This document shows, one piece after another, positions 2,777-54,055 of a stretch of 64,000 nucleotides of DNA; positions within the stretch are counted from its first letter, which is position 1; the number at the start of each line of letters is the position of its first letter. A program made the position numbers and the translations under genes. Origin of the DNA: Candidatus Saccharimonadota bacterium (GTDB lineage Bacteria; Patescibacteriota; Saccharimonadia; Saccharimonadales; Saccharimonadaceae); assembly GCA_017460225.1 (NCBI GenBank), contig JAFUBM010000014.1, positions 1-64,000 on the forward strand, in the 5' to 3' direction. Under the pieces are notes generated by a model. That model worked only from the letters and a program-made list of their open reading frames with translations, searched no databases and was not told where the DNA came from.

Positions 2777-4081
2777 TTAGGGGAGACGGGAGAGAATGAT
2801 GAGGTTTTCTATATGGGGCGTCTTGGGGAAGAAGTTGAAGGGGACGATTTTGGCGATACGGTAGTGCTGGAGCAGGAGAGCGACGTCGCGGGCCTGAGTA
2901 GAGGGGTTGCAGGAGAGATAGATGATGGTTTCGGGCTGGACGGCGTTGAGACGTTCGATTAACTTAGCGTCGCAGCCGGCGCGGGGAGGGTCGAGGATGA
3001 CGGTCTGGCCGGGCTGGATGAAATCTGTGACGTCTTCGGACTTGGCCAAGATGGCGAGGGTTTGCTTGCGGTCGGAGGTTCCTTTCGGGACACGGAGTTC
3101 TCTCGGCCCGTCGTTACGGGCGAGAGCCTCCTCTTCCTCGGCCCGTTGGCCTGCGGACGGTCCCGAGAAGAAACACTCCTCCCCGCAAACTTCCTCGCAA
3201 TTTTTTACTAGTTCTTTAAATGCTGATTTATCAGATTCTACCAATACTAATTTTTTGTCGCGGGCGACGGAGAGGCCGATGGTGCCGACACCGGAATAGA
3301 GGTCGAGGACGTCGCTGGTGGTGATGTGTTTTCTAATCTCTTGCAGAGCGAGCTCGTAGACCGGGAGGTTGATCTGGAAGAAGCCGTTGGGAGAATAAGA
3401 GTATTCGTGGCCGAGGAGCGTATCGCGAAGATTGGGGAAGACTGGGTGAGGGCGGTGGTTTTCTAAGAGACCGCCAGAGACTTCGCCGTGTTGATTGCAG
3501 CGCAGAAGCAAGGACTGGTATTTGCGGGCTTCTTCATGGCGATTATTTAGGTCTCTGACGCATTCTAAGGCTGCCTGTAGCAATTCTGGACGTTCGAGGC
3601 TAGACGTAAGCACTTTTTGTTTTTTGTGCGTCCCACGGGCTCTGAAAGCCAAATAAATGCAATTGTCTGAATTGTCCCAGTAGAGCGCATATTCCATTTT
3701 GTTACGATAATGCCATTCTTTGCCGTCGGTCTGGACGGGGGAGATGTCTAGACCGTCGAGGGGGATGTGGGCTTGGCGGAGAGATTCGGCGACGAGCGCG
3801 CACTTCTGAGCGAGTTCGTAGTCCCAGTCGAAAATTTGCCAGGGAGAGGTGGAGAGATAGAGCGAGTCACGCGGCGTGACGCGATGGGGCGAGGGATGTT
3901 CGATTTCTGTGGCGATGCCCTCGAGATAAGAGGATTTGCGTTTGGTGAGGTCGAAAGCGGTGACGGTCTCCCCAGGCAGGGCGTTCCAGAGAAAGACCTT
4001 TTTGCCGTGGTCGGGAGAGGCGGGGTCGTCGAGCGTGCCGAGGGCTTGGCCGCCGGGGGTAAGTTTTGTTACGTGAATCAT
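2777..4081 (-). CDS. RlmD/TrmA-family RNA (uracil-5-)-methyltransferase
   Basis: SAM-dependent methyltransferase forming 5-methyluridine in rRNA or tRNA, 434 residues. N-terminal TRAM-like part (1-60), then YRNKMEYA (about 122-129), the SAM motif LDLYSGVGTIGL (about 258-269), DPPRAGCD and the catalytic SCNPSTQARD near the end. The Fe-S cysteines of E. coli RlmD are not apparent. Residues about 299-339 are encoded by a 123-bp palindromic element shared with valS and interrupt the Rossmann fold after its second strand; the family has no such insert. TATAAT lies 8 bases before the ATG, so the mRNA is probably leaderless. Whether the substrate is 23S rRNA or tRNA is not certain. Confidence 0.85.
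   Translation of the reverse strand: MIHVTKLTPGGQALGTLDDPASPDHGKKVFLWNALPGETVTAFDLTKRKSSYLEGIATEIEHPSPHRVTPRDSLYLSTSPWQIFDWDYELAQKCALVAESLRQAHIPLDGLDISPVQTDGKEWHYRNKMEYALYWDNSDNCIYLAFRARGTHKKQKVLTSSLERPELLQAALECVRDLNNRHEEARKYQSLLLRCNQHGEVSGGLLENHRPHPVFPNLRDTLLGHEYSYSPNGFFQINLPVYELALQEIRKHITTSDVLDLYSGVGTIGLSVARDKKLVLVESDKSAFKELVKNCEEVCGEECFFSGPSAGQRAEEEEALARNDGPRELRVPKGTSDRKQTLAILAKSEDVTDFIQPGQTVILDPPRAGCDAKLIERLNAVQPETIIYLSCNPSTQARDVALLLQHYRIAKIVPFNFFPKTPHIENLIILSRLP
3064..3186. repeat. Palindromic element family A, copy 1 (inside the rlmD-like gene)
   Basis: A 123-bp element (41 codons, in frame) almost identical to 6479-6601. Outer arms 3078-3091 and 3160-3174 pair with one bulge; an inner stem pairs CTCTCG-CCCGT with ACGGG-CGAGAG around CGTT (about 3099-3126). 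The two copies differ almost only in the outer arms, and the changes compensate each other (TCGGGAC/GTCCCGA here, CCGAGAC/GTCTCGG in the other copy), so pairing is conserved. Confidence 0.9.
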
Positions 4082-4120
4082 TAGAGGTGATTATAGCACA
4101 GAAGGCGGAACATAGGAAAT

Positions 4121-4151
4121 ACATAGGTAAAACGTAGGAAATTACCTATGT
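4121..4151. other. Intergenic hairpin upstream of the rlmD-like gene
   Basis: A perfect 10-bp inverted repeat (ACATAGGTAA 4121-4130, TTACCTATGT 4142-4151) followed on the + strand by TTTTT. Part of it is repeated directly as CATAGGAAATA at 4111. It lies between tRNA-Gln and the -10 box of the methyltransferase gene. It resembles a terminator on the + strand, but no + gene precedes it. Confidence 0.4.
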
Positions 4152-4171
4152 TTTTGGGGAAGGTGAGAGAT

Positions 4172-4193
4172 AAAAAAGAGGTCCCGAGGGACT
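4172..4193 (-). terminator. Terminator of tRNA-Gln
   Basis: On the - strand AAGTCCCTCGGGACCT forms a short hairpin followed by CTTTTTTA, just downstream of the tRNA. Confidence 0.65.
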
Positions 4194-4207
4194 TTGGAGG
4201 ATAGGCT

Positions 4208-4282
4208 TGGCTGGGCTGGCAGGGATCGAACCTGCGAAGGACGGGACCAAAACCCGTTGTCTTACCACTTGGCGACAGCCCA
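4208..4282 (-). tRNA. tRNA-Gln (anticodon TTG)
   Basis: Cloverleaf on the - strand: acceptor TGGGCTG/CAGCCCA with discriminator G and encoded CCA; anticodon stem ACGGG/CCCGT around loop TTTTGGT gives anticodon TTG; T-loop GGTTCGATCCC. It reads CAA codons. Confidence 0.93.
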
Positions 4283-4334
4283 ATCGCTAGCTATTTTAGC
4301 ACAGGAAGGCAACGGAGTCAATTTACGGGGGAGG

Positions 4335-7271
4335 CTACTCGATAACCGTGAGCTCTTGTTTCAAGCGGGAGATGAGGGCGGTTTTGTCGGCGATTCCCTG
4401 GCGGGTTTCTTCGACGAGATGGGCGGGAGCCTTGGCGACGTAGTTGGGATTTTCGAGGCGCTTCTCAAGAGCGTCGAGCTCGCGACCGACGGAGAGAATC
4501 CGCTCGGTCAGGGCGTCTTTGTAGACTTTGAGGATGTCGTCGGAGACGTCGAGATAAACTTCGCGGCCGGAGAGCGCAAGCCGAATCCCGCGAGGCGAAC
4601 CCTTGGTTGGGCCGATTTTGTCGGTGTGGGTCAAAGCGCGAAGCAGCTCGGCATTCTCCTCTATCAGCCCATCATCACCATAGAGCAGACCGATGTCGAC
4701 ACCTTTGACGGCATCTTTGAGACCGGCGAGCACCCGGCGTGCCTCAAGGACGGTCTCTTGGAGACGAGTGAAGTTCTCGGCGGAAATCGGGTCGAAGTTG
4801 AGCGGGGTTGGCCAGGACTGGTTAATCAGGAAGCCGTCTGTCCAGGAGAGCGCCTGCCAGATGGTCTCGGTGACGAAAGGCATGAAGGGATGGGCGATAA
4901 TCAAAAGATTTTCTAGCGTGCGCTTCAGAAGCGGGAGGTTTTTGAAGATTTTTTCACTCTCGAGGAACCAGTCGGCGTATTTGTCCCAGATGGTGCTATA
5001 AAGCTCTTCGACGGCTTCGGCGAAGCGGTAGGATTTGAGGTCTTTGGCGACGGATTTGGCGAGGCTGTTGAGCTCGCGGCAGATCCAATCTTCGGACATG
5101 CTGAGGGTATCGTAATGCAATGAGTCGCCAGAGGTCTTTTTCGCTAGGGAAAATTCAGTCTGATTTCCCTCGTCGACCAGTCGGTTCGAGCGCAAAGCCG
5201 TTCGGGTAGCACCGGCCACGTTTTGCGCTCTCCCGTGTTCTCCTCGGGAAATCCGTGAATTTTCTTTAGTCGCTTCAAAAGACTCTGTCGACTCATTTAC
5301 TAGACCATCGATGAAGCGGGAGATGTTCCAGAGTTTGTTGCAGAGGTTGCGGCCGGCGATGACGGATTCCTCCGAGAAAGCCTGGGACATACCGGCGGAG
5401 CGGCCGCGGAGAATCCCTAGCCGGAAAGCATCGGAGCCGTACTTGGCGACAAGATCCATCGGATTGATAACGTTACCCTTGGACTTGCTCATTTTCTTGC
5501 CGTGGGCGTCGAGCACGAGACCGTGGAGATAAACTTCCTTAAACGGCACCTCGCCGGTAACGTAAACCCCAATCATAATCATCCGGGCAATCCAGGCAAA
5601 GAGAATGTCAGCACCGGTCTCCATAACATTGAGCGGATAATAGGGCGAACCGTGGGCTTCGGTCCAGTCTGTGCAGACGATTGGCCAGTGGGCGGAGGAG
5701 AACCAGGTGTCAAAGGTGTCTTCATCTCGAACGTATTTGACCCCGCCAACCTCAATTTCTTTTAGATTGACGCGCGTGTCAAAAATCCAGTCGGCGGCAT
5801 CGGAGAAGTTATCCTTCCCTGTCCCGGCGGACTCGGTGCGGACTTTCTTAAACATCGGGATGGGAATCCCCCAAGGAATCTGGCGAGAGATGTTCCAATC
5901 TTTAAGCCCGGCGAGGTAGTTGGTCAACACCTTTTGCTTGCTTTTTGGATAAAATTTAATCTCGTTGTGGTCTAGATGCTGGATGGCGAGCTTGGCGAGT
6001 TTCTCGGTATCGATGAACCACTGCTCTTTCAGAGTAGGCTCAATCACCGTGCCGCATTTGTAACAATGGGCGACGGCGTGGGAGATTTCGTGAGAGCCGA
6101 GGAGCAGGCCTTGGTCTCGTAAATCTTTGATCACAAGGGCGCGGCATTCTTCGGTGGAGAGACCAGCGTAACGCTTACCGGCGGCGGGCAACATCCGCCC
6201 GTCGTCACCAATGACCTGAAGATTCTCTAGATTGTGGCGTTTGCCAACCTCAAAATCGTCGAAATCGTGCGCGGGGGTAATCTTGACCGCACCGGTGCCA
6301 TACTCCGGATCGGCGTGCTCGTCGGCAATGATGGGAATCGTGCGGTTAGTCAGAGGGAGCTTGACGAATTTGCCAATCAGATCTTTGTAGCGGGCGTCGA
6401 AGGGGTTGACCGCAACGGCTTGGTCGCCGAAGAGGGTTTCGGGGCGGGTGGTGCTGATGATTATGGTGCGATTTCGGGGCTTGCGGTCGGAGGTACTTTC
6501 CGAGACACGGAGTTCTCTCGGCCCGTCGTTACGGGCGAGAGCCTCCTCTTCCTCGGCCCGTTGGCCTGCGGACGGTCTCGGAGAAGTACACTCCTCCCCG
6601 CCGCCTGAAATCGCACTGTTTTCCACTACTTCGTAGGCGATGTCCCAGAGGAAGCCGGGCTCGTCTTTGTGCTCGACTTCGATGTCGGCGAAGGCGGTCT
6701 GGTGCTTGGGGCAGTAGTTGACTAGCTTTTCCCCTCTGTAAATAAAGCCGTCGTTCCACATCTTCTCAAAAGTCTTGTAAACCCGAGAGACGACATTCTC
6801 GTCTAATGTAAAGGTTAGGTCGTCCCAAGCGCAGCTAGCCCCGAGCGCGCGGACCTGGAGCTCCATATTACCTCGCTGCTCCTGAACGAAGTCCCAGACC
6901 TGAGCGTAGAGCTCGTCACGAGAGTATTCAAAACGCGAGTGGCCCTGGGCCTCAAGCGCCCGCTCGTACACCACCCAAGTCTCAAAACCGGCGTGGTCTG
7001 CCCCCGGAATATACCAGGCACTCTTCCCTTGCAGGCGATAAAAACGCGTCAATGTGTCTTCAAGCGCGATAGTGAGGCCGTGGCCGATGTGGAGATTGCC
7101 GTTGGCGTTGGGGGGAGGCATAACAATGGAATAGTATGGTCTGCCGTTAGGAGTTTTCGCTCCGGCAGACTGATTATTAACCTCGCTGGGGTTAAAAAGG
7201 CCTTCGGATTCCCAAGCGGCGTAGATGTCAGATTCAAAGTTTTGCGGTTCGTAAGAAGATGTGAATTTCAT
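4335..7271 (-). CDS. valS: Valyl-tRNA synthetase
   Basis: Class Ia synthetase charging tRNA-Val, 978 residues. HIGH-type motif HIGHG at 61-65, editing domain with STTRPETLFGD (about 275-285), WIARMIMIG region, KMSKSK near 592, helical anticodon-binding domain and a C-terminal coiled coil (about 900-978, LDALEKRLENPNY). Two palindromic elements are inserted in frame: family A at residues about 224-264, just before the editing motif, and family B at about 669-707, at the start of the anticodon-binding domain. Without them the length is close to that of normal ValRS. TAGAAT lies 6 bases before the ATG, and another promoter about 175 bases upstream could give a longer transcript. Confidence 0.96.
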   Translation of the reverse strand: MKFTSSYEPQNFESDIYAAWESEGLFNPSEVNNQSAGAKTPNGRPYYSIVMPPPNANGNLHIGHGLTIALEDTLTRFYRLQGKSAWYIPGADHAGFETWVVYERALEAQGHSRFEYSRDELYAQVWDFVQEQRGNMELQVRALGASCAWDDLTFTLDENVVSRVYKTFEKMWNDGFIYRGEKLVNYCPKHQTAFADIEVEHKDEPGFLWDIAYEVVENSAISGGGEECTSPRPSAGQRAEEEEALARNDGPRELRVSESTSDRKPRNRTIIISTTRPETLFGDQAVAVNPFDARYKDLIGKFVKLPLTNRTIPIIADEHADPEYGTGAVKITPAHDFDDFEVGKRHNLENLQVIGDDGRMLPAAGKRYAGLSTEECRALVIKDLRDQGLLLGSHEISHAVAHCYKCGTVIEPTLKEQWFIDTEKLAKLAIQHLDHNEIKFYPKSKQKVLTNYLAGLKDWNISRQIPWGIPIPMFKKVRTESAGTGKDNFSDAADWIFDTRVNLKEIEVGGVKYVRDEDTFDTWFSSAHWPIVCTDWTEAHGSPYYPLNVMETGADILFAWIARMIMIGVYVTGEVPFKEVYLHGLVLDAHGKKMSKSKGNVINPMDLVAKYGSDAFRLGILRGRSAGMSQAFSEESVIAGRNLCNKLWNISRFIDGLVNESTESFEATKENSRISRGEHGRAQNVAGATRTALRSNRLVDEGNQTEFSLAKKTSGDSLHYDTLSMSEDWICRELNSLAKSVAKDLKSYRFAEAVEELYSTIWDKYADWFLESEKIFKNLPLLKRTLENLLIIAHPFMPFVTETIWQALSWTDGFLINQSWPTPLNFDPISAENFTRLQETVLEARRVLAGLKDAVKGVDIGLLYGDDGLIEENAELLRALTHTDKIGPTKGSPRGIRLALSGREVYLDVSDDILKVYKDALTERILSVGRELDALEKRLENPNYVAKAPAHLVEETRQGIADKTALISRLKQELTVIE
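5149..5264. repeat. Palindromic element family B (inside valS)
   Basis: Three nested perfect inverted repeats: GAAAATTCA/TGAATTTTC (5149-5157, 5256-5264), GATTTCCC/GGGAAATC (5162-5169, 5246-5253) and GAGCGCAAA/TTTGCGCTC (5188-5196, 5222-5230), around a loop with CCG/CGG pairing. It encodes about 39 residues that interrupt ValRS between the catalytic core and the anticodon-binding domain. I found no second full copy in the window. Confidence 0.8.
6479..6601. repeat. Palindromic element family A, copy 2 (inside valS)
   Basis: Same length, orientation and reading frame as 3064-3186. Outer arms 6493-6506 and 6575-6589 pair perfectly apart from one bulged base. Both copies translate to PSAGQRAEEEEALARNDGPR within the host proteins. 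Confidence 0.9.
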
Positions 7272-7527: not shown

Positions 7528-7549
7528 TTGCTTGCGGTCGGAAGTTCTA
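7528..7549 (+). repeat. Remnant of the left end of element A
   Basis: TTGCTTGCGGTCGGA (7528-7542) is identical to 3062-3076, and the next bases AGTTCT differ at two positions from GGTTCC. The rest of the element is missing. Confidence 0.5.
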
Positions 7550-16332: not shown

Positions 16333-16441
16333 AAGGCAGCATCTACTTCCTCTGAAGGTGCGCTACTCGCTCTCCGTACTTTAAGTACGGTTCGCTCCGT
16401 TGCTCCTTCATCGTCGTATCTACTACCTTCTAGAAGTTTAG
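16321..16441. repeat. Palindromic element family D, intergenic copy 1
   Basis: Arms 16321-16339 and 16423-16441 match in 17 of 19 positions; an inner perfect hairpin CCGTACT/AGTACGG (16374-16380, 16384-16390) is followed by a GCTCC-rich segment ending TTCATCG, as in the polA copy. Its left arm overlaps the stop codon of the preceding gene. Confidence 0.7.
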
Positions 16442-17048: not shown

Positions 17049-19523
17049 ATGAAGAGATTAGTGGTAATCGACGGGAAGTCGGTGTTTTATCGGGGGTATT
17101 ATGCGATGGGGTCGCTCAGTACGAGCGACGGGACGCCGACGGGCGGCGTGTATGGGTTTGCGGCGATAGCGATGGAGCTGGTGCGGAAGCTGAGACCGGA
17201 TAAGGTGGTCGTGGCCTGGGACAAGGCAAAAACGTCGATCGCAAAACGCAAGGCGATTTATCCGGAATATAAGGCGGGGAGAGTGAAGCCGCCGGAAGAC
17301 TTTTTTACGCAGATACCGCTGCTGAGAGAGTTGGTGGAGGCGCTGGGGTGGTATTTTTGCGAGATTGATGAGTATGAAGCGGATGATATAATCGGGACTT
17401 TGGCTTTTCAGGTTAGTACCGGGGCGGCTATAACGGCGGAGCCTCGCCGCCCCTATGAGATGTACATCATCTCAAGCGATCTGGATATGTTGCAGGTCGT
17501 GGATGAGAATGTGAAGATGTATCGATTGCTCAAGGGGTTTACGGAGCTGGAGGAGATTGACGTTAAGGCCGTAGAGGAGAAATATGGCATTCGCAAAGAG
17601 CAGTTTTTGGACCTCAAAGCCCTGAAGGGCGACGCGTCGGACAACATCCCGGGCGTGCCGGGGATTGGCGAGAAAGGGGCGGTGAAGCTACTGAACGAAT
17701 ACGGCAGCTTGGACGGCATATATAATAATATAGAGAAGATTACGGGCGCGACGCGGAAGAAGCTAGAGGCGGGGAAGGAGAGCGCCTACATGAGCTACAG
17801 ATTAGCGAAGATTATGACGGATGCGCCAGTCGAACTTTCGCAGATACCAGAGCTAACATTAGACCGCGATAGAATTGTTGAGGCACTAGATAGATTAGAG
17901 TTTAAGAGTCTGAAAAGAAAATTCCTGTCCGGTTCTATGGCTTTTGATACGACGCATTCTGCTTCTTCAGCGGATGCGTTGCTCACTCGACGTATGTCAA
18001 ATACGTCTCGTTCCGCTACTCCCGCTTCATCGCATAATGCGCCGTCTGAAAAGCCTGAGCTTTTAGACGGATTGCCAGAAGGTGTGATTTTTAGTTTTGA
18101 TATTAAGGGGTTGATGCATCGAGATGCGGAGGTGGCGAAGAAAATCCTGGGTGGGGTGGAGTTTTATGACCTGGGGCAGGGAAAGTTCCTGCTGAATCCG
18201 CTGGCGCGGAAGAATGTTGAGGAGCAAGGTAGTTTGTTTGGCGATGACCCGGAGGAGATGCGGGCAGAATATGTACGGCAACAAGCGGAGTTTGAGAAAT
18301 ATCCGAAGCTGAAGCGAGTGTTTTACCAACTAGATATGCCGCTAATTCCGGTACTATACAAGATAGAGCAGAATGGTATGAAAATCGACCGGGAGTATTT
18401 CCGGAGGTTACAGGCGGAGTATGAAGCGGAGGTGGGGCGGCTGACTAGGGAAGTGTACGAGCTGGCCGGGACGGAGTTTAACCTAAACTCGCCGATACAG
18501 CTAGGAGAAGTGTTGTTTGAGAAGTTGGGGCTGCCGACTAAGGGAATCAAGAAGACCCTAAGAGGGTATTCTACCGGAGCGAAAGAGCTAGAAAAGCTGA
18601 AAGGGCTACACCCGATTATCCCGAAGCTGATGGAGTATCGCGAGGCGGCGAAACTGTTAAATACCTATATCGTACCACTACCGCAGCTGATGGACGGAGA
18701 GGGACGAGTGCACACTACGTTTACTCAGGACGTAACGGCGACGGGACGGCTATCGAGCGTGAATCCGAACTTACAGAACATCCCAACGCGAACGGAGGCG
18801 GGGAAGAAAATTCGCGGGGGATTTGTGGCCGAGCCGGGGAAGGTGATGATTTCTGCGGACTATGCGCAGTTTGAACTGCGGCTGGCGGCGGCGATGAGCG
18901 GGGACGAGGCACTGGTAAAAGACTTTAACGAGGGGGTGGACATCCACACGAAGACGGCGGCGGAGGTTTACGGAATACCGATGAGCGAAGTAACGAAAGA
19001 CCAGCGACGCGAAGCAAAAGTGGTTAACTTTGGGATTATCTATGGGATGAGCGCGAAGGGGTTGGCGGATGCGACGGGGATGACGGTGGCGGAAGCGCAG
19101 GAGTTTGAGAGGCAATATTTTGAGCTGAGAAAGCCGATTGAGACGAAACTAAAGAGTTACCTAGAACAGGCGAGGACAGAGGGGTTTGTGGAGACGTGGT
19201 TTGGGCGACGACGCCCGACGCCGGACGTGAAGAGCGCAAACTTCGTAGTCCGGACGGGGGCGGAGCGAGCGGCGCAGAATATGCCAATCCAGGGGACGGA
19301 AGCGGATTTGATGAAATTAGCGATGATACGACTGAACGAGAAGTTGCCGGAGGGGGCGGAGATGATTATGCAGGTGCATGATTCGATTATGGTGGAGTGC
19401 GAGCCGGGACAGGCGGAGGAGGTGGGCCAGATAATGCGAGAAGTGATGGAAGGGGTGGCGCCGGAGCTGGGGGTGAAGCTGGCGGTGGACGTGAAGACCG
19501 GGAAGAACTGGGGAGAAGTATAG
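17049..19523 (+). CDS. polA: DNA polymerase I without an intact proofreading domain
   Basis: 824 residues. The 5'-nuclease domain (1-about 290) has VVIDGKSVFYRGYYA, EADDIIGTLAF and SSDLDMLQ. The 3'-5' exonuclease region (about 340-420) is short and lacks the DxE motif. The polymerase domain (about 430-824) has DYAQFELRLAA (motif A), RREAKVVNFGIIYG (motif B) and QVHDSIMVE (motif C). Two palindromic elements interrupt it in frame, at residues about 124-135 inside the nuclease and 297-335 between the domains. TATAAT lies 6 bases before the ATG. Confidence 0.95.
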   Translation: MKRLVVIDGKSVFYRGYYAMGSLSTSDGTPTGGVYGFAAIAMELVRKLRPDKVVVAWDKAKTSIAKRKAIYPEYKAGRVKPPEDFFTQIPLLRELVEALGWYFCEIDEYEADDIIGTLAFQVSTGAAITAEPRRPYEMYIISSDLDMLQVVDENVKMYRLLKGFTELEEIDVKAVEEKYGIRKEQFLDLKALKGDASDNIPGVPGIGEKGAVKLLNEYGSLDGIYNNIEKITGATRKKLEAGKESAYMSYRLAKIMTDAPVELSQIPELTLDRDRIVEALDRLEFKSLKRKFLSGSMAFDTTHSASSADALLTRRMSNTSRSATPASSHNAPSEKPELLDGLPEGVIFSFDIKGLMHRDAEVAKKILGGVEFYDLGQGKFLLNPLARKNVEEQGSLFGDDPEEMRAEYVRQQAEFEKYPKLKRVFYQLDMPLIPVLYKIEQNGMKIDREYFRRLQAEYEAEVGRLTREVYELAGTEFNLNSPIQLGEVLFEKLGLPTKGIKKTLRGYSTGAKELEKLKGLHPIIPKLMEYREAAKLLNTYIVPLPQLMDGEGRVHTTFTQDVTATGRLSSVNPNLQNIPTRTEAGKKIRGGFVAEPGKVMISADYAQFELRLAAAMSGDEALVKDFNEGVDIHTKTAAEVYGIPMSEVTKDQRREAKVVNFGIIYGMSAKGLADATGMTVAEAQEFERQYFELRKPIETKLKSYLEQARTEGFVETWFGRRRPTPDVKSANFVVRTGAERAAQNMPIQGTEADLMKLAMIRLNEKLPEGAEMIMQVHDSIMVECEPGQAEEVGQIMREVMEGVAPELGVKLAVDVKTGKNWGEV
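17421..17453. repeat. Palindromic element family C, copy 2 (inside polA)
   Basis: GGGGCGG/CCGCCCC arms (17421-17427, 17447-17453) around a core that matches 11014-11036 in 21 of 23 bases. It encodes a short extra loop in the 5'-nuclease domain. Confidence 0.75.
17939..18055. repeat. Palindromic element family D (inside polA)
   Basis: 117 bp, 39 codons in frame. Arms 17939-17958 and 18036-18055 pair in 17 of 20 positions (GGCTTTT/AAAAGCC at the tips). Inner hairpin GACGTAT/ATACGTC (17989-17995, 18001-18007), then TCGTTCCGCTACTCC. The Ser/Thr-rich peptide made is unlike the rest of PolA. Confidence 0.8.
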
Positions 19524-31914: not shown

Positions 31915-32091
31915 CTCCTAGTTCTGTTTCTGTCCTGGTCCTCGGCTCGCGAAGTCAAAATTACAACATTCAGTCTCGTTCGTTCTCGAGCATACGCACG
32001 CTACGCGCGCTCCTTACTTGAACTCACGAGTGAAAGTTGTAATTATTGACTGTCGGCGCCTGCGGAATCGGACAGAGAACAGAGCAAGGAG
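31915..32091. repeat. Large intergenic palindrome
   Basis: About 177 bp. The outer arms (31915-31967 and 32036-32091) pair imperfectly over about 55 bases: CTCCT near the tips, CTGTT-CTGTCC in the middle, AGTCAAAATTACAAC (31953-31967) with its complement at 32036-32051 at the inner end. The centre contains CTCGTTCG and GCGCGCTCC, reminiscent of family D. A short frame at 32018-32248 starts within it and is not credible as a gene. The palindrome separates ftsK from the surface-protein island. Confidence 0.65.
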
Positions 32092-32168
32092 CCACCCTGC
32101 GCTTTATTTGAGGAACTTCCATAAGCCTTGCCTTACGGGCGGAAGAAAACTGTTTATTAAAAATTGTC

Positions 32169-32197
32169 TTGATTTTGGAAAAATTGGTTGGTATAAT
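32169..32197 (+). promoter_or_regulatory. Sigma-70 promoter of the surface-protein gene
   Basis: TTGATT (32169-32174), 17-base spacer, GGTATAAT with the -10 at 32192-32197. Transcription should start near 32203, exactly where the first stem of the leader begins. Confidence 0.8.
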
Positions 32198-32201
32198 GAA
32201 A

Positions 32202-32432
32202 GTGCTAACATTAATCAAATGAACCGCCGATTTTTATTAGGGAACTAATAAAAATAGCAAATCAACAACTCGATTCGTAAAACACAAGTGATAGCTGGAA
32301 CTGGCACCGCGTAGGAACTGGTTGGTTACCACTTGTGTTGGCGGATCGATTAGTGTTAGCACCTCACGGTGCCAATTTTGTTTCAAGCATAATTTCTACC
32401 GCTGAGGTGAAAACCATAAGAGAGGTAGGAAA
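32202..32432 (+). promoter_or_regulatory. Riboswitch-like structured leader of the surface-protein gene
   Basis: P1: GTGCTAACATTAATC (32202-32216) pairs with 32348-32362 in 14 of 15 positions. P2: TTTTTATTAG/CTAATAAAAA (32231-32240, 32245-32254), perfect, with a GGAA (GNRA) loop. P3: AACACAAGTG/CACTTGTGTT (32281-32290, 32330-32339). Pseudoknot: GGCACCG (32303-32309) in the P3 loop with CGGTGCC (32367-32373) just after P1. A last hairpin pairs TTTCTACC (32393-32400) with GGTAGGAAA (32424-32432), covering the ribosome binding site. A closed multi-stem domain with a pseudoknot and a sequestering hairpin is riboswitch architecture; I do not recognise the class. Confidence 0.65.
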
Positions 32433-53982: not shown

Positions 53983-53996
53983 CGAGCTTCTGCGTT

Positions 53997-54055
53997 AGAG
54001 TCTCCGATACTCAGTCGACGTATCTTAAATACGTCTCCTTCCGTTTCTCGACTCT
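53997..54055. repeat. Palindromic element family D, intergenic copy 2
   Basis: Outer AGAGTC/GACTCT (53997-54002, 54050-54055), inner perfect GACGTAT/ATACGTC (54017-54023, 54029-54035) followed by TCCTTCCGTTTCTC. The inner hairpin is identical to that of the element in polA. It separates the glycosyltransferase from proS. Confidence 0.7.

Follow-up and report, generated by a model that had tools for sequence, protein, structure and literature searches.

A probable in-frame palindromic element of protein genes in a Saccharibacteria genus, with a stem that appears to be extended and kept matched by inverted copying at the host site

The palindromic elements of Rickettsia (RPEs) and of Wolbachia are palindromes of ~100–150 bp found both in intergenic positions and, in frame, inside protein genes that are not related to each other, and the RPE host protein is thought to stay functional despite the added peptide. 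To our knowledge, in-frame palindromic elements are known mainly from Rickettsiales. REPs are extragenic and are tied to RAYT (Y1) transposases. RPEs are mentioned in two earlier papers (PMC2694212, PMC6649704) and lose repeat identity over time (PMC6649704). Coding palindromes with arms that are kept matched, and with dynamic gain and loss, have been described in Nematomorpha mitochondrial genes, where template switching was proposed (PMC6649704). Template switching is an established maker and keeper of such stems (PMC8794818), and is known to occur at quasi-palindromes in bacteria (PMC7202029, PMC8794818).

The stretch analysed here, referred to as the window, consists of 64,000 nt of Saccharibacteria contig JAFUBM010000014.1 (positions 1–64,000). 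It carries a dispersed palindrome in the size range of about 100–150 bp that is inserted in unrelated protein genes and leaves their frame intact. These features are shared with RPEs, a likeness that is functional. However, the Saccharibacteria element belongs to another phylum, and has a conserved tip on a site-specific stem that is kept matched. Intragenic arms also stay complementary through evolution in the Nematomorpha coding palindromes, but both arms of those palindromes code for conserved protein and a dispersed core common to the copies has not been described, whereas here a common core of ~84 nt has been inserted. Template-switch-made RNA hairpins (PMC8794818) are similar in that their stems are made and maintained by inverted copying, but that work deals with RNA genes and not with in-frame mobile inserts. 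By analogy, the element would work like RPEs with an arm upkeep resembling that in Nematomorpha, and membership of neither group is claimed. The original prediction knew of no description in this lineage, and a literature search likewise found no published description of the element in Saccharibacteria.

Two copies in the window and the anatomy of the element

The original prediction placed the same 123-bp palindromic element in an rlmD-like gene and in valS, and this was confirmed. Window positions 3064–3186 and 6479–6601 form a direct repeat of 123 nt with 91% ungapped identity, and the repeat was also recovered when searched against its own genome using BLAST (94%, E 2.8e-47). Copy 1 is located in a gene for an RlmD/TrmA-type RNA uracil-5-methyltransferase (tRNA_U5-meth_tr; coordinates 2777–4081; PF05958, E 2.4e-18), and copy 2 in loop B (about aa 214–269) of the valS gene for valine--tRNA ligase (coordinates 4335–7271; PF00133, E 1.3e-109). 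Both genes and both copies are on the minus strand. As predicted for these two unrelated genes, each copy adds 41 codons in an identical frame, and the peptide PSAGQRAEEEEALARNDGPRELRV is common to the RlmD-type protein and ValRS.

The inner arms differ between the copies (TCGGGAC/GTCCCGA in one and CCGAGAC/GTCTCGG in the other) yet pair in each when folded, again in line with the prediction. The stem runs on past the ends of the 123-bp repeat into the flanks, which are complementary within each site but unrelated in sequence between rlmD and valS (GCGAGGGTTT/AAACTTCCTCGC in copy 1 and GTGCGATTTC/GAAATCGCAC in copy 2). In the fold of copy 1, the site-specific outer arm GCGAGGGTTT (coordinates 3054–3063) pairs with the arm at 3187–3198, which is the 5' arm on the coding strand, and in that of copy 2 the site-specific outer arm GTGCGATTTCGGG (coordinates 6466–6478) pairs with CGCCTGAAATCGCAC (coordinates 6602–6616). 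The extended hairpins of both copies have a predicted dG of about -76 to -88 kcal/mol.

Alignment of 34 copies identified a T-shaped core of ~84 nt (a three-way junction), in which a closing stem leads to two hairpins, the small P2 (CGGAGGYYACGRCCGAGG in the main class) and P3, which bears the nearly invariant tip CCCGTRACGACGGG, and covariation was seen at 9 of the 14 predicted pairs in the P3 stem. This core sits on a long stem whose sequence differs site by site. A covariance model built on the core, R1, detected it at 3083–3170 in copy 1 (E 3.5e-19) and at 6498–6585 in copy 2 (E 1.0e-17), both on the minus strand. The original prediction is therefore refined in two respects, as the conserved unit is the ~84-nt tip rather than the entire hairpin, and the joint change of the arms reaches into the site-specific host flanks. 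Two copies in congener G022 (L302 and L305) appear to lie nested within an older member of the family, in its P2 hairpin.

The ends of the element are the least conserved part of the 34-copy alignment. Four recent copies in the genome that includes the window (rlmD, valS, L003 and L004) have the ends GCGGGG...CCGCAAGC in common, with site-specific inverted flanks directly after them, and no direct target duplication was found at these four copies. MITEs are similar in being short, repeated and without their own transposase, and in having inverted ends. However, the ends vary most here, the flanks of the same four copies are inverted and not direct repeats, and the conserved terminal inverted repeats and target-site duplication of MITEs were not found.

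Loop C of valS holds another in-frame hairpin insert (coordinates 5120–5296, minus strand; fold dG -77), whose core is unrelated in sequence and which has no R1 match; in other species, R1-family copies are found in this loop. An 18-nt intergenic match to the element end (GCTTGCGGTCGGAAGTTC; coordinates 7530–7547; E 0.14) is possibly a remnant and possibly due to chance.

Distribution, host genes and reading frame

Within this Saccharibacteria genus, 59 of 60 genomes have R1 matches, whereas 40 genomes representing 40 other genera in the order have none, which excludes chance as the source of the repeat. The number of copies per congeneric genome has a median of at least 9.5 and a maximum of at least 31, the family totals at least 717 copies, and nine members are present in the genome that includes the window. 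An exact-pattern scan of 85,000 GTDB species returned at least 80 loci. Among the matches listed, 79 were in Saccharibacteria, mostly in ruminant gut MAGs from several studies, and the single Rhizobium locus is taken as chance. As many independent assemblies carry the element, an assembly artefact is unlikely. Pattern scans of IMG/VR and of plasmids gave no matches, and a phage match (MT835928; E 0.03) that was GC-rich and without the tip motif was rejected as a chance hit. Judged jointly with the explanation of the stem given below, the family probably consists of genus-wide, small, non-autonomous palindromes that are inserted in protein genes with the frame unbroken.

Another palindromic family, in which the internal loops are conserved and the stems vary, is represented in the window at 16343–16405, 17959–18021 and 53987–54049, and was found in 10 of 36 genus genomes compared with 0 of 24 others.

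Copies of the R1 family were counted as coding when located in an open reading frame of ≥200 aa that left 50 aa on each side of the copy, and 164 of 220 non-redundant copies (75%) were intragenic by this definition; the sample also holds intergenic copies. The coding copies are found in both orientations (94 one way and 70 the other), and all phases are used. The element occurs in more than 20 unrelated proteins, and the hosts include IleRS, ValRS, AlaRS, PheT, GatA, GatB, MnmA (two sites), TruB, TrmD, TsaD, LepA, Der, PolA, DnaX, UvrB, PcrA, cysteine desulfurase and TatD. Targeting is recurrent, with different species carrying inserts in the same loop. REPs and REPINs are also small non-autonomous hairpins with several to many copies per genome, but the extragenic location of REPs does not apply to an element with 164 of 220 copies in genes, and the cognate Y1 (RAYT) family, PF01797, is absent from 58 of 60 genus genomes.

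For 157 of the 164 coding copies, both flanks match one homologous protein elsewhere. Among the remaining 56 of the 220 copies this was the case for only two, L138, which is in frame and just under the size cut-off, and L214, the sole out-of-frame case, which is associated with an NN assembly gap. The frame is kept in all 158 evaluable within-gene insertions. As splicing or bypass would need no such constraint, the sequences indicate that the insert is most likely translated, and a linker of about 30–50 residues would be added to a tolerant loop of the host protein. Strong intragenic hairpins are found in mitochondrial byps, and an insert that is similarly skipped by the ribosome, or removed from the mRNA as an intron would be, could account for such a hairpin, but non-translation leaves the frame free, and 158 of 158 in frame against a chance expectation of about one in six contradicts this explanation, making it very improbable. 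The element lacks the tested defining features of REP/RAYT systems, MITEs and byps.

Empty and filled loops in the host genes

Comparison of ValRS from 16 congeners and outgroups revealed three loops, A at the N terminus, B at a junction near residue 214 and C at a junction near residue 663, that are filled with hairpin inserts in some species and empty in others. A further comparison found an empty loop B in 24 sequences. In the RlmD-type gene, the distance between fixed anchors is 47–58 residues in 13 congener sequences with an empty loop versus 90 in the window, a net gain of about 41 codons, and at the position of the window insert the congener L130 gene encodes KNAGSSATTILDKSE. As the same loops are empty in relatives, the rlmD and valS copies are true insertions as judged at the protein level, the species compared being too distant for nucleotide-level empty sites. 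The shared peptide might suggest an ordinary protein domain or an ancestral segment of RlmD and ValRS. However, the segment is missing from RlmD and ValRS of many congeners and from outgroup ValRS, more than 20 unrelated host proteins carry the element in both orientations, a domain search of the host proteins found no known domain matching it, and an Rfam search matched only tRNAs, such that the element represents no Rfam family. A domain origin is contradicted by its absence from these relatives and is scarcely credible.

Within a single gene (valS, lepA or rlmD), the presence of the element is scattered among congeners, and in some cases the core is reduced or missing with the arms retained (rlmD L336, L339 and L342; lepA L259 and L260), which reads as decay. 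AlphaFold predictions made with a shallow alignment had a mean pLDDT of 37 for ValRS and 56 for RlmD, with ~33 for the RlmD insert, a value compatible with disorder without counting as evidence for it.

In 12 congeners (G018, G020, G023, G030, G038, G044, G046, G047, G051, G053, G054 and G059; loci L279–L290), LepA/EF4 is encoded in two pieces, one gene for the N-terminal GTPase half and another, with a start of its own, for the C-terminal half; the split falls in the loop where other species have the palindromic element. The 0.7–2.9 kb interruptions of LepA were considered as autonomous elements or inteins and rejected, as the gene has undergone fission and unrelated genes lie between its halves.

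Pairing of the arms and origin of the stem

The original prediction of an RPE-like in-frame insertion with arms that change jointly agrees with the comparative data. Pairing of the flanks beyond the core exceeded the 99th percentile of swapped-flank controls for 85% of 220 copies. In 67 orthologous insertion pairs, which share members and so are not independent and some of which may have arisen by independent insertion into one loop, 274 positions were changed on both sides, of which 195 still pair and 79 are broken; pairing was thus kept at 71% of double changes compared with 38% when the register was slid. Between the GatB copies L159 and L214, a 9-nt difference is present in both arms simultaneously.

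Compensatory change of this type could also stem from selection on an RNA structure that functions in the mRNA, such as an RNase III or translation-pausing site, with selection on pairing matching the arms, and the invariant tip loop, the strongly covarying stems and the proportion of double changes that stay paired are consistent with this. However, single changes in the orthologous pairs mostly break pairing (393 versus 158 that keep it). The scattered presence for each gene, the use of both orientations and several frames, the intergenic copies, and the loss of cores with the arms remaining (rlmD L336, L339 and L342; lepA L259) are also at odds with regulation of a particular gene. Selection on an mRNA structure is therefore considered unlikely.

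At 33 of 37 sites, the net insertion is shorter than the hairpin (medians 96 and 123 nt, respectively), indicating that the stem partly consists of gene sequence that was already there. At the handful of sites where arm polarity was judged by eye, the ancestral-looking arm is the 5' arm for ValRS site A in G007, ValRS site B in G005 and RlmD in the window, and the 3' arm for LepA L262 and L259; in LepA, either side may look ancestral. At ValRS site A, G007 has GACAGGTTTGAA where the empty G012 has DDRFE, and the window RlmD arm AATTGCGAGGAA, the partner arm at 3187–3198, resembles AATTGCGAGAAAAG in the insert-free gene of L346. At some sites, one arm appears to correspond to the insert-free gene and the other to its inverted copy.

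The outer arms would instead predate the insertion if the core prefers the loops of pre-existing hairpins. The recent copy L004 is in an apparent terminator hairpin (AAGGCTCG...CGAGCCTTTTTT), the two apparently nested G022 copies lie in a P2 hairpin, and rlmD L342 has an 11-bp palindrome without a core. However, no such palindromes are present in the empty rlmD, valS and lepA loops of most congeners, and it is implausible that loops of essential genes already contained inverted repeats of 20–40 bp to serve as targets, leaving this explanation quite improbable.

The most parsimonious account is two-layered, with a mobile core followed by fold-back copying. A mobile core of ~84 nt would insert in a protein gene with the frame kept, and fold-back (template-switch) DNA synthesis at the site would then lengthen and repair the stem by copying one host-gene flank as an inverted repeat into the other flank. 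The element would persist as a tolerated peptide without benefit to the gene. An RPE-like in-frame element with a stem that is extended and kept matched by inverted copying at the host site is thus regarded as the probable explanation. The stricter proposal, that only the T-shaped ~84-nt tip moves and that the stem of each copy is built from the invaded gene, in frame, by the host replication machinery, is more tentative, and falls a little short of an even chance.

No transposition or excision event was directly seen in the genomes compared, and no mobilising enzyme was found among the Y1_Tnp, IS110 and reverse transcriptase families checked in genus genomes. Y1/RAYT (PF01797) was rejected as it occurs in only 2 of 60 genus genomes, IS110 as it occurs in only 1 of 36, and the reverse transcriptase (RVT_1), which occurs in 23 of 36, as it is missing from several element-rich genomes, such as G003 and G004. 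None of the three families tracks where the element occurs and in how many copies.

The wider question addressed by the element is how in-frame palindromic elements spread and how matched arms are kept up. About 60 related species offer hundreds of copies in loops of conserved genes that are hit repeatedly, and as filled alleles coexist with empty ones, template switching and selection as origins of the compensatory changes can be tested against each other in closer strains. The host genes suggest that a strongly reduced genome tolerates linkers of 30–50 residues in core translation enzymes.

Other palindromes and repeats were also observed. Two long, strong hairpins without an R1 match (window coordinates 31921–32100 and 32191–32370) were energy outliers in a blunt window scan. 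The region at 1–1875 has a DGR-like layout, with repeats at 1–66 and 561–626 (97%) followed by a reverse transcriptase gene (PF00078; coordinates 724–1875). In congener G024, five near-identical palindromes of ~225 nt (L294–L298, L314–L317) have an R1-family core at the tip, and their outer arms hold the 3' end of a DGR variable-protein-like gene (GTCCGCTGTTTGGTATA, PVRCLVY).
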